Shown here piece after piece: positions 1-59,368 of a stretch of DNA of 64,000 bases. The stretch lies in NCBI GenBank assembly GCA_903831575.1, contig CAIKYB010000040.1, forward strand, positions 124,001-188,000. The letters are read 5' to 3'. How positions within the stretch are numbered: the first letter of the stretch is position 1; every line of letters starts with the position of its first letter. A program made the position numbers and the translations under genes. This DNA comes from an uncultured Bacteroidota bacterium (GTDB lineage: Bacteria > Bacteroidota > Bacteroidia > Chitinophagales > Chitinophagaceae). The notes below the pieces were generated by a model that saw only the letters and a program-made list of their open reading frames with translations, did not search any database and was not told the origin of the DNA.

Positions 1-1088
1 CCAAATCCACCCATTCCTGCTGTCAATTGCATAGCGCCGCCATCGGATGCCAATGAGCCTGCTAATAACGATCCTAAGATAGGGCCAGTGCAGGAAAATG
101 AAACTAAGGCTAATGTAAGTGCCATGAAGAAAATACCAATCACATTACCCGGCCCTGCTTTACTATCGGCACCTGTAGAAAAAGATGCAGGCAACGTAAT
201 TTCATAAAAGCCGAAAAAAGAAAAAGCAAAAATCACGAAAATGATGAAAAAGAAAACATTGAGATAAACATTCGTTGAAATATTATTGAGAAACTCAGGA
301 TTAATGCTGTCTAAAAAATGAAAGGGCAAGCTTAATAGGATGTAAATAATAAAGATAAAAAAGCCGTATAAAAATGCATTTGATATACCTGCTTTTTTAG
401 ATGTCGCTTTTTTGGTAAAAAAAGAAACAGTAAGTGGAATCATTGGAAATACGCAAGGGGTAAACAATGCAATTATTCCACCCAGAAATCCAATAAAAAA
501 AAGACTCCACAGACTCTTTGAGGTTTTATTTGAACCTGAAGTTGCCTGGTCTCCAATCCCACAATTGTTGAGGGGATGATTAATATCTATTGATGTTATG
601 CGTATTCTTGCCTTGGGTTGATTAGCAGCACTTGAGTCTATTGTAATTTTTATCAATTGTTCTTCTTGAATATAATTTGCTGCATAACCGCAATCATAAC
701 TGATTTTTAAATTCAAGAAGGGCTGATCAGTATTAGTAAAATGAAACTCTTGTTCCATTTCGATATTCCTTTCAACAACTTGCTTTTTTTTGTTATCAAA
801 AAGGGGATCGTTAATGGATTTAAAAGCAGCATTAAATACAATGTCATTTTTTTTAATCGAAGAATCATTATACCTGATGAGTATGCCAGGAATATCATCA
901 ACAACATCTTTTGCATACAAATGCCATCCTGGCTTTATTTCACCTTTCAATTTGAAACTAAAATGATGATCTTTAATCTTCGATAATTGAGTTGTCCATT
1001 TTACTATCGTAGTATCTTGTGCCAAGCAGACAGAAGTCCAAAATAAGAGGATAGTTAAGGAGAGTATAAATGTTTTAATCATTTTCAT
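1..1088 (-). CDS. dsbD: Protein-disulfide reductase DsbD family, C-terminus cut by window edge
   Basis: Reading frame open from the ATG at 1088 to the left edge, about 362 residues visible. It starts with a signal peptide (about residues 1-24). A DsbD-alpha-like periplasmic domain follows to about residue 170. A CcdA/DsbD-type membrane domain starts near residue 190. Its two expected cysteines are visible: Cys212 in TPCVFPMIPLTVSFF and Cys333 in SFSCTGPILG. In this family the membrane cysteines carry electrons from cytoplasmic thioredoxin to periplasmic thiols. The thioredoxin-like C-terminal domain, if present, lies outside the window. The neighbour at 1230-1688 is a stand-alone copy of the alpha domain. 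The start is preceded by a conserved 31-nt element (1115-1145) that also occurs upstream of two other genes. Confidence 0.88.
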   Translation of the reverse strand, partial: MKMIKTFILSLTILLFWTSVCLAQDTTIVKWTTQLSKIKDHHFSFKLKGEIKPGWHLYAKDVVDDIPGILIRYNDSSIKKNDIVFNAAFKSINDPLFDNKKKQVVERNIEMEQEFHFTNTDQPFLNLKISYDCGYAANYIQEEQLIKITIDSSAANQPKARIRITSIDINHPLNNCGIGDQATSGSNKTSKSLWSLFFIGFLGGIIALFTPCVFPMIPLTVSFFTKKATSKKAGISNAFLYGFFIFIIYILLSLPFHFLDSINPEFLNNISTNVYLNVFFFIIFVIFAFSFFGFYEITLPASFSTGADSKAGPGNVIGIFFMALTLALVSFSCTGPILGSLLAGSLASDGGAMQLTAGMGGF

Positions 1089-1114
1089 AAGTCATTCAGC
1101 TTTTAAATTTTAAT

Positions 1115-1160
1115 CACATCTTGTAGTCTTTATTATCATTCTCGGTTGGTATAAGCCAAC
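1115..1160 (-). promoter_or_regulatory. Copy A of a recurring 31-nt leader element plus adjacent hairpin
   Basis: On the minus strand the core (1145 to 1115) begins CCGAGAATGAT and ends ATGTG, 26 nt before the dsbD ATG. Directly upstream is a perfect 5-bp stem, GTTGG with loop CTTATA and CCAAC (1160-1145). The core matches copy B (59227-59257) at 27 of 31 positions and copy C (55417-55447) at 18 of 31. Function is unknown. It could be a structured mRNA leader, an operator, or an alternative sigma factor promoter. Confidence 0.6.
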
Positions 1161-1183
1161 GCAGATAGGTATTTCATGACATT

Positions 1184-55378: not shown

Positions 55379-55447
55379 ACAAGATTGTAATGCGGAGAAA
55401 CCGCTGCTCTTGTCAACCGAAGACGACTATTTAGGGCGTAACATGTG
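55379..55447 (+). promoter_or_regulatory. Copy C of the recurring leader element with upstream hairpin
   Basis: The core (55417-55447) begins CCGAAGACGAC and ends ATGTG, 28 nt before the GTG start of the cytochrome c peroxidase gene. It matches copy B at 21 of 31 positions. Just upstream, ACAAGA (55379-55384) can pair with TCTTGT (55408-55413) around an inner perfect stem GCGG-AGAAA-CCGC (55392-55404). The extra GTAACATGTGG segment is shared almost exactly with copy B. Confidence 0.55.
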
Positions 55448-55475
55448 GTAATAGTTCAACAATAAAAATACATAG

Positions 55476-56429
55476 GTGAAATATCTTAAAACAACTTTTT
55501 TATTACTTTTGGCCATCGGATTTATTGGGTTTTCAGTAATCGAAAAACCTGCAACAGTAATGACTAAAGCCGCTTTAGGGAAATTACTTTTTAATGAGAA
55601 GATTTTGTCAAAAGATTCATCAATAAGTTGTAGCTCCTGCCATCATCCTGATTTAGCATTTGCCGACACATTGCCTTATAGCGTAGGAATTAATGGAAAA
55701 TTAACCAAGAGAAATACGCCTTCTGTGCTTAATATGAAAAACAGACCCTACTATTTTTTCGACGGCAGGGCATCTTCATTACAAGAACAAGCCTTAATGC
55801 CTATCCGAAATCCTGACGAAATGGGATTACCCATTCAGGAAGCAGTACAAAGATTAAATAACTCTTCCTTCTACAATAAGCAATTTCAGCTTGTGTTTAA
55901 AAGCAATGCAAACGAAAAAAATCTTGCTGACGCTTTTGCCGCTTATGAAAATACGCTTGAAACTACAGACAGCAAATTTGACGACTGGAGTAATAATATT
56001 AAAAAATTATCGCCAGCTGAAGAGAGAGGTCGCCAGGTTTTTTTGAGCGATAAGGCAAAGTGCTTTGATTGTCATTTTCAAGTAGATTTTACTGATGATG
56101 GGTTTAAAAATATTGGATTGTTTAATGGAAAAGAATGGAATGATAGTGGCCGATATTTAATCACCAATAATATTCAGGATATTGGAAAATTCAAAACTCC
56201 CGGATTAAGAAATATTGCTGTTACCGCTCCTTATATGCATAATGGGATGTTTAAAACTTTGGAAGAATTGGTTGAGTATTATAATAACACCAAAAAAATA
56301 GTTCCCAATAGTGTCAATATCGATCATGCATTGAAAGAACCGCTTGGACTTTCCAAACAAGAACAAAAAGATATTGTGGCCTTTTTGAAAACACTTACAG
56401 ATAAGCGATATGTCAAAAAAAATAGCTGA
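55476..56429 (+). CDS. Di-haem cytochrome c peroxidase
   Basis: 317 residues with GTG start at 55476. A signal peptide (about 1-22) precedes two haem c sites: CSSCH (52-56, high-potential side by family rule reversed order possible) and CFDCH (194-198). The segment NTPSVLNMKNRPYYFFDGR and the C-terminal TAPYMHNGMFKTLEELVEYY are characteristic of the CcpA/MauG family. It reduces H2O2 in the periplasm using electrons from small c-type cytochromes, or acts in a related oxidation. Copy C of the recurring leader element lies directly upstream. Confidence 0.93.
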   Translation: MKYLKTTFLLLLAIGFIGFSVIEKPATVMTKAALGKLLFNEKILSKDSSISCSSCHHPDLAFADTLPYSVGINGKLTKRNTPSVLNMKNRPYYFFDGRASSLQEQALMPIRNPDEMGLPIQEAVQRLNNSSFYNKQFQLVFKSNANEKNLADAFAAYENTLETTDSKFDDWSNNIKKLSPAEERGRQVFLSDKAKCFDCHFQVDFTDDGFKNIGLFNGKEWNDSGRYLITNNIQDIGKFKTPGLRNIAVTAPYMHNGMFKTLEELVEYYNNTKKIVPNSVNIDHALKEPLGLSKQEQKDIVAFLKTLTDKRYVKKNS

Positions 56430-58416: not shown

Positions 58417-59193
58417 CTATAAAATTACAGAAGCAATATTTCCATGAACTGCAGATGATATTTCCTTAATTAAATTTTCGTCTTTTTCTATTGCATTTCC
58501 AACAACGATCAAATCCGCTCCTGCTTTGCAGTTTAAATAAGCCTTTTCTGGATTAATGATGCCACCACCAACAATCAACGGAACCTCAATACAAGAAGCT
58601 ACTTTTTGAATCATGGATTCTGAAACAGGTTTTTTGGCGCCACTCCCTGCATCCATATAAATTAATTTCATACCAAGCATTTCACCCGCCATTGCTGTAC
58701 ACATAGCGATTTCATTTTTATCTGCAGGCAACGGATTAGCATTGCTAATATAAGAAACGGTAGTGGGTGCGCCGCCATCAATAACCATATATCCTGTAGA
58801 AAGTATTTCCAAGCCACTTTGCTTTACAGCAGGTGCAGAAACAACATGCTGACCAATTAATAATTCGGGATTACGCCCACTTATCAGGGAAAGATATAAA
58901 AGGGCATCAGCATGTTTGCTAATTTGAGAAGGACTTCCTGGGAAAAGTATTACGGGGATATTACAGTTCTCTTTTATGGCTAATACACATTGATCCAGAT
59001 AATCAGAAACAACTAAACTGCCTCCAACAAAAAAGTAATCAACCTTGGCATCTATAGCAAGACGGATAAGTTTTTCCATGCGCTTTTCATTGACTTTATC
59101 AGGATCAACTAAAACAGCAAAAGATTTTTTTTGCTGCTGTTTCCTTTCCATCAATGAATTATAAATGCTGTTCTTCATGCCTAACTTATACAT
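58417..59193 (-). CDS. Geranylgeranylglyceryl phosphate synthase-like protein (PcrB family, group II)
   Basis: 258 residues from ATG 59193; Met6 (MKNSIYNSLMERKQQQKKSF) fits the family start better. The TIM-barrel shows FAVLVDPDKVN near the N-terminus, FVGGSLV, VILFPGSPSQI and two phosphate-binding glycine segments (YMDAGSGAKKPV and LIVGGGI). The family joins a polyprenyl diphosphate to sn-glycerol-1-phosphate, the first step of archaeal-type ether lipids; group II members occur across Bacteroidota, where their products are not well established. Copy B of the recurring leader element lies upstream. Confidence 0.88.
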   Translation of the reverse strand: MYKLGMKNSIYNSLMERKQQQKKSFAVLVDPDKVNEKRMEKLIRLAIDAKVDYFFVGGSLVVSDYLDQCVLAIKENCNIPVILFPGSPSQISKHADALLYLSLISGRNPELLIGQHVVSAPAVKQSGLEILSTGYMVIDGGAPTTVSYISNANPLPADKNEIAMCTAMAGEMLGMKLIYMDAGSGAKKPVSESMIQKVASCIEVPLIVGGGIINPEKAYLNCKAGADLIVVGNAIEKDENLIKEISSAVHGNIASVIL

Positions 59194-59226
59194 TTCATAT
59201 GTTGATAATTATTGTTTTTCTTTTAC

Positions 59227-59270
59227 CACATGTTATAGCCTTTATGATCATTCTCGGTTAGTAACAAACG
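59227..59270 (-). promoter_or_regulatory. Copy B of the recurring 31-nt leader element
   Basis: On the minus strand the core (59257 to 59227) reads CCGAGAATGATCATAAAGG, then CTATAACATGTG. It lies 33 nt before the ATG at 59193 or 48 nt before Met6. Directly upstream, GTTTG and CTAAC can form an imperfect stem at the position of the perfect stem in copy A. The segment continues GTAAAAG, closely matching copy C (GTAATAG). Confidence 0.6.
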
Positions 59271-59368
59271 ATATTGCTATTTGATGCAAAAATGTACAAT
59301 TTTTCGTTCATACCGAAATATTGTCCTTAGTAAAATGGGTATATTATCAAACTCGGTCTATTTATTGG

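Follow-up and report, generated by a model that had tools for sequence, protein, structure and literature searches.

A gene-less two-hairpin element in front of unrelated Chitinophagales genes is probably a transposase-less mobile DNA family

The question raised by this locus is why three non-homologous genes are preceded by the same short sequence. In the window (the whole 64,000-nt stretch of DNA that was analysed), a 31-nt core is found upstream of a dsbD-like ORF (copy A; 1115..1145, minus strand), a GGGP synthase ORF (copy B; 59257-59227, minus strand) and a cytochrome c peroxidase-like ORF (copy C; 55417-55447, plus strand). The original prediction interpreted this core as a regulatory element. 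Its coordinates and strands hold on re-reading of the sequence, and recounting gave the same pairwise identities (27/31, 21/31 and 18/31). The core ends 26 nt (A), 33 or 48 nt (B) and 28 nt (C) before the start codon, the same distances as predicted earlier, where they were listed in an order that differs from that of the copies. A composite pattern of the three copies matches the window three times, compared with a mean of 0.09 matches over 100 dinucleotide shuffles (0/100 reach three), a test that is biased because the pattern was derived from those very copies. As this test is partly circular, the rest of the genome serves as an independent control. In the window's genome (2.44 Mb, 46 contigs), the pattern has 14 matches at three or fewer mismatches versus 3 for a reversed-pattern control; judged by context, the matches look like family members with the sole exception of L012.

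The core is the middle of a larger element of ~87-120 bp, and in the aligned genome copies conservation spans from ~35 nt before the core through the start codon. The element is ~87-92 bp in length (~115-120 bp with an extra inner hairpin) and contains no gene. Its left hairpin reads ATAGCC ..CTC..CCAACCGAG..AATGATAATAAA.. GGCTAT and is followed by AA; its right hairpin reads CATGTG ..ACCAAA..A/U-rich.. CACATG and is followed by a terminal AA, with the ATG of the gene inside the right arm. The small stem described earlier directly upstream of the core is the inner stem of the larger left hairpin (GTTGG/CCAAC in copy A). A subfamily in G005/G011 (L084, L085, L128-L130, L140, L141 and L145) has ~25 extra nt that form a second inner hairpin in the left loop, e.g. 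CCCCGAAATTTCGGGG. A covariance-model search had been proposed as a check on the core. When run with a model built from 12 copies (R1), it gave about 24 matches at E<0.01 in the window's genome and many more in congeners, where further copies lie upstream of genes. One covariance-model match, L150 before rlmH, is a false positive: the gene that precedes rlmH contains the same sequence in both relatives.

Single-strand folding predicts two hairpins in the better-preserved copies (z-scores down to -3.2, the best reached by 0/200 shuffles), whereas the window copies fold weakly (A, z -1.3; B, z -0.1) or, for C, no better than shuffles. In the tested helices, counted over 99 fitted matches, both sides change in 118 cells, compared with 53 in shuffles (0/500) and 27-47 in slid controls. 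These counts over named structures were used in place of RNAalifold, which predicted no pairs on the fitted 99-row alignment, probably due to gaps and decayed rows. A MAFFT alignment of 37 diverse units, made without fitting to the structure, shows 91% pairing in the left stem, where AU/GC/GU and GC/CG/UA exchanges occur; 0/500 shuffles reached its covariation score. The right stem is nearly invariant within this sample, but each of the four complementary forms is found among the copies as a whole: CATGTG/CACATG, CATTTG/CAAATG, CATCTG/CAGATG (G250, G265 and G044, three genomes from families f9 and f10, and congener G024) and CATATG/CATATG. Two divergent copies, L058 (G013) with a perfect 15-bp left stem (GCTATAAAAATTATC/GATAATTTTTATAGC) and L070 (G006) with a long imperfect left stem, share the ACCAAC loop motif and the right hairpin. 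The left-stem exchanges and the four right-stem forms bear out the suggestion of a structured element with compensatory changes; on these alignments, both hairpins are supported and the structure is evidently selected in the family. An extended stem joining the internal CATGTG to the left flank was considered and rejected: its support is weak because the left flank is host DNA, and the internal arm of CAGATG-type copies pairs with the right end of the element. Rfam covariance models gave no gathering match in the window and two sub-threshold chance matches in 12 loci.

The three window copies appear to be old, partly decayed insertions. Copy A is a degenerate element of 89 nt (1084..1172, minus strand; R1 and R2 covariance-model matches of 77.0 and 59.1 bits). 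Its left flank is GTCATGAA (1180-1173), its inner stem GTTGG cttata CCAAC (1145..1160) is visible both in the sequence and in the fold, and its right end (..ACTTATGAA) falls on the start (ATGAAAATG) of the dsbD-like ORF (1..1088, minus strand), which is cut by the window edge with at least 362 aa in the window. Copy B is an exact 87-bp insertion (59194..59280, minus strand; model matches of 82.8 and 70.8 bits) with the sequence ..GCATCAA / ATAGCAATA...CATATGAA / ATGTATAAG.. from host to host. Its left hairpin (59235..59280) has the arms ATAGC(A) (59280-59275) and GGCTAT (59240-59235), and in its predicted right hairpin (59196..59232) CATGTG (59232-59227) pairs with CATATG (59201-59196). The GGGP synthase ORF (58417..59193, minus strand) has 258 aa from 59193, and an ATGAAG at 59178 aligns with the start in relatives. 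Copy C is the most degenerate (91 nt; 55390..55480, plus strand; model matches of 67.1 and 49.3 bits), with the right end ..CATAGGTGAA. The cytochrome c peroxidase-like ORF (317 aa; 55476..56429, plus strand) has a GTG start at 55476 that occupies the position of the element's former ATG, and its G011 orthologue also has the element at its start.

Comparison of close relatives revealed the same sites in filled and empty states, read from MAGs that are fragmented. A unit is located in front of hicB in G016 and is missing in G029, which reads AAAAAAATAAATTATGAAAATTG. In G029, a unit is located inside hicA, where the reading frame has CATGAAAT. At an MKNF.. lipoprotein-like gene, the unit follows CATTCATGAAA in G005:C29, while G011:C34 reads CATTCATGAAAAATT; the comF site is filled in G011 and empty in G005. 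In G029, one hepT ORF is split by a unit at a point where the G011 sequence is GATGAATTT, and a second interrupted hepT of G029 has a paralogue in the same genome that is intact at that point. These G029 insertions in toxin-antitoxin-type genes (two hepT and one hicA; L153, L155 and L157) are all in the sense orientation, and the frame resumes beyond the unit. Several copies of a ~290-bp MITE of G029/G016 (terminal inverted repeat [TIR] AACCCGGATTTTGCAGTTG) bear the unit as well, and a copy in the upstream flank of L091 is empty, with GCATATTGAAATATGG uninterrupted. The MITE was observed at L159, L092, L151, L152, L154 and L156 (G016/G029), mostly with the two-hairpin element inside.

In the window, copy B is a site of this kind. 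The 15 GGGP synthase orthologues that could be read all lack the element, and excision of exactly 87 bp produces GTACATTTTTGCATCAAATGT, which is identical to G110 over the same stretch upstream of GGGP synthase. At copy B, CATCAA is the host sequence to the left and ATATGAA the right end; the corresponding sequences in the MITE are TATTGAA and CACATGAA. In both cases the left host sequence and the right end differ; the right end is therefore part of the element, and the target was not duplicated. TGAA is found on both sides at most other filled/empty sites, so target duplication is possible there. Orthologues of dsbD were not found by DNA search and so copy A has no empty-site comparison, and the G005 orthologue at copy C has no recognisable element in an alignment too weak for an empty-site call. 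In six alignable G005/G011 pairs that share an insertion, identity within the element (0.81-0.99) is mostly similar to that of the flank (0.75-0.96), as expected for inert DNA, and does not suggest strong constraint after insertion. Sequence comparison shows the insertion, its target and the ends of the element, the absence of target duplication at two sites, the conserved hairpins, the tandem arrays and the enrichment at start codons. Taken on that basis, this gene-less two-hairpin element of ~90 bases is very probably a transposase-less family of mobile DNA that was apparently active recently.

The copies are strongly enriched at start codons. Right ends coincide with the exact start of an ORF in 64 of 99 copies, compared with 22 of the 304 ordinary CATGAA sites that this DNA contains, and many of the remaining right ends belong to internal array units, are MITE-borne or intragenic, or are cut by contig ends. 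We infer that survival bias rather than function explains this enrichment, since most other insertions do harm; a selected benefit may also be compatible with it. Units additionally occur in tandem arrays of 2-4 with a period of ~87-92 nt (G005:C49 has four units; G005:C239, G011:C9, G108:C25 and G102:C46 have three each; many places have two), several of which are at contig ends so that the copy numbers are lower bounds. At one locus, array size differs between close relatives (L149 versus L088), with two units in G011 and one in G005. Within arrays, the right end of each unit is the target for the next.

As the element is mobile, the regulatory reading is mostly wrong. What remains of it is that the element is structured and recurs directly upstream of non-homologous genes in the genus; a regulon-type riboswitch, an operator and a sigma-factor promoter are not supported. 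The downstream genes, which we take from sequence recognition to encode dsbD, GGGP synthase, cytochrome c peroxidase, thiolase, SucC, NadC, a UmuC-type polymerase, ThrC, AroC, phosphoglycerate mutase and toxin-antitoxin proteins, share nothing, and the element is not a promoter or the mark of a regulon: there is no common pathway, presence varies among close relatives, and copies are found inside ORFs, in a MITE and in tandem arrays. Any regulatory effect would be secondary, and the element may affect translation. One such possibility is that the right hairpin with its start codon acts as a portable translational leader of variable copy number, such that insertion rewires the 5' UTR and changes in tandem number tune it or, in an RNA version, that the element is skipped or removed and ORF insertions are tolerated; this is a rather long shot.

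A vertically inherited cis-regulatory leader (a riboswitch, RNA-binding-protein site or thermometer) that defines a regulon, with the right hairpin gating translation, would account for a structure with compensatory changes, for a start codon within the right stem, for the position of those 64 of 99 copies at ORF starts and for retention at certain orthologues, for example ThrC of G005/G011. It is nonetheless distinctly unlikely given that the genes downstream are unrelated housekeeping genes, that the same sites are filled or empty in close relatives, that hepT and hicA ORFs and a MITE contain copies, that the structure is decayed in old copies such as window copy C, and that Rfam has no match. 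Very unlikely too is an element that is mobile at the RNA level, either a retro-inserted structured RNA or one bypassed in or spliced from the mRNA so that ORF insertions are tolerated. All three intragenic cases (hicA and two hepT) are in sense, direct repeats flank the insert, and the conserved ACCAAC loop and the covariation are RNA-like, but three sense cases have a chance of 1 in 8 and neither a ribozyme core nor an Rfam ribozyme match was identified. An alternative sigma-factor promoter with the core as -35/-10 is almost certainly wrong, for despite the fixed start-codon distance and the AACC..TATAAC look of copies A-C, the conserved positions include covarying hairpin arms and, at GGGP synthase, the promoter box TACATTTTTG precedes the element and persists in relatives that lack it. 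This box (59287..59296, minus strand) is a likely -7 promoter element of the Bacteroidota type, located 6 nt upstream of copy B and conserved upstream of GGGP synthase in several relatives, and so the element is probably transcribed as a leader rather than forming a promoter.

Among known systems, the mobile two-hairpin element is most readily compared with the PATEs of Haloquadratum (PMC3119063), which are likewise too short for a transposase and have no terminal inverted repeats, near-terminal palindromes, no target duplication and a short left target motif. The ends of the element (ATAGCC... and ...CACATGAA) are not inverted repeats, the palindromes correspond to two hairpins with compensatory changes, and target duplication is absent at copy B and the MITE, the other sites being uninformative with TGAA on both sides. 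These features match the descriptive PATE definition. In contrast to PATEs, the element is bacterial (Chitinophagales), is ~90 bp in length, has hairpins at its very ends, docks at start codons and forms tandem arrays. With respect to IS605-type ends, different hairpins flank the genus's Y1 genes, and a limited search returned no longer version; the element is therefore not filed as a PATE, which would call for a link to an IS605-type transposon. Autonomous IS200/IS605 elements encode a Y1 transposase, for which this element is too short. REP sequences are 21-65 nt, are largely intergenic and have a GT[AG]G foot (PMC6006769). The REP/BIME system with TnpA-REP (RAYT) is similar in its hairpins beside a tetranucleotide, many copies and clusters (PMC6006769), whereas the present element is larger, has two different hairpins, lands on an ATG and has a TGAA foot; no intact copy is located at the Y1 loci searched, and the inspected Y1 genes are flanked by other hairpins. 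In the BrickBuilt MITE of Porphyromonas gingivalis, 23-nt repeats are enclosed by a leader and tail whose ends are inverted, and copies are always intergenic at a distance of 49-591 nt from genes (PMC4596501). BrickBuilt too is a miniature Bacteroidota element with head-to-tail repeats, but the element described here repeats in tandem as a whole, lacks a TIR and directly adjoins the start codon. The terminal inverted repeats of DDE-type MITEs are lacking, as is their target duplication at the two informative sites, and integron attC core sites (RYYYAAC/GTTRRRY) are not apparent by eye. BOX and RUP of Streptococcus pneumoniae are small hairpin-forming repeats near genes that are probably mobilised in trans; they differ from this element in phylum, architecture and target. 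The family had no match in Rfam or in the literature searched.

No autonomous relative or linked transposase was found in the genomes searched. Y1 (HUH) transposases (PF01797) are encoded by 15 of 16 element-bearing genomes and also by most congeners without the element, in which they are just as common. As a linked mobiliser, Y1 was rejected, since other hairpins flank the genes and their presence does not discriminate between genomes with and without the element. No Y1 transposase was detected in G016, despite an insertion there that is absent from G029. The Y1 genes inspected (G000, G011 and G029; L187, L192, L197 and L198) have their own short hairpin repeats, e.g. AGCCCACCGTTGAAACGGTGGGCT, GCTCCAGAGGAGC and ATCCCGATGGGAT. 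Several Y1 proteins of the genus carry the Y..NQE.HH motif of TnpA subclass 1.2, which generally lacks typical terminal structures (PMC6006769), and this is a lead only. A limited half-element pattern search for a longer autonomous version returned only chance matches, an interrupted copy in G000:C26 and a truncated copy in G005:C144. In the former (L316; G000:C26:12930 to about 12790, minus strand), the right half is seemingly interrupted by unrelated sequence before the start codon.

The proposed model for the movement of the element is as follows. The element inserts 3' of a short host motif, usually (A)TGAA, with CA(N)ATGAA as its own 3' end. On landing at an ATGAA-type start codon, it supplies a new start codon behind an unstructured A/U-rich stretch, its right end restoring CANATGAA in frame with the gene. 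As translation can continue after an insertion of this kind, such insertions would survive and accumulate. Tandem arrays could form via insertion beside an existing copy, circle integration or replication slippage. The element would presumably move as single-stranded DNA, with the two hairpins recognised by an enzyme supplied in trans (HUH/Y1-like or other), as suggested by its anatomy and by analogy with IS200/IS605 and PATEs (PMC3119063). Considered alone, the HUH single-strand mechanism is advanced tentatively, as a reasonable option more than as the probable answer. We favour a PATE-like element that lacks a transposase of its own and is moved in trans, perhaps by an HUH enzyme.

At E<=1e-4, matches are present in 22 of the 93 genomes of the genus. 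Sampling of the order gave matches in 7 of 299 genomes. Two of these are the window's own genome and congener G111, and five belong to another genus of the same family and to three other families. The order-level copies that were read are located before ATGAAA, mostly at gene starts. Named matches are from MAGs of Chitinophagaceae or unclassified Bacteroidetes, with one further match in a MAG labelled Streptomyces griseus. The latter MAG bears the element at L103 (CALPIT020000028.1), and its label is probably wrong. Viral contigs had no exact pattern match.

The family thus spans several families of one order. Scans for upstream motifs would take the element for a regulon or an undiscovered riboswitch, compensatory changes included. 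A mobile element can mimic a structured leader in this way because its own end supplies the start codon, so that it becomes the new leader sequence of the gene. The element also provides a defined substrate, with two hairpins and cleavage after TGAA, for testing the orphan Y1/HUH proteins of Bacteroidota, and it represents a natural case of 5'-UTR rewiring combined with tandem expansion.
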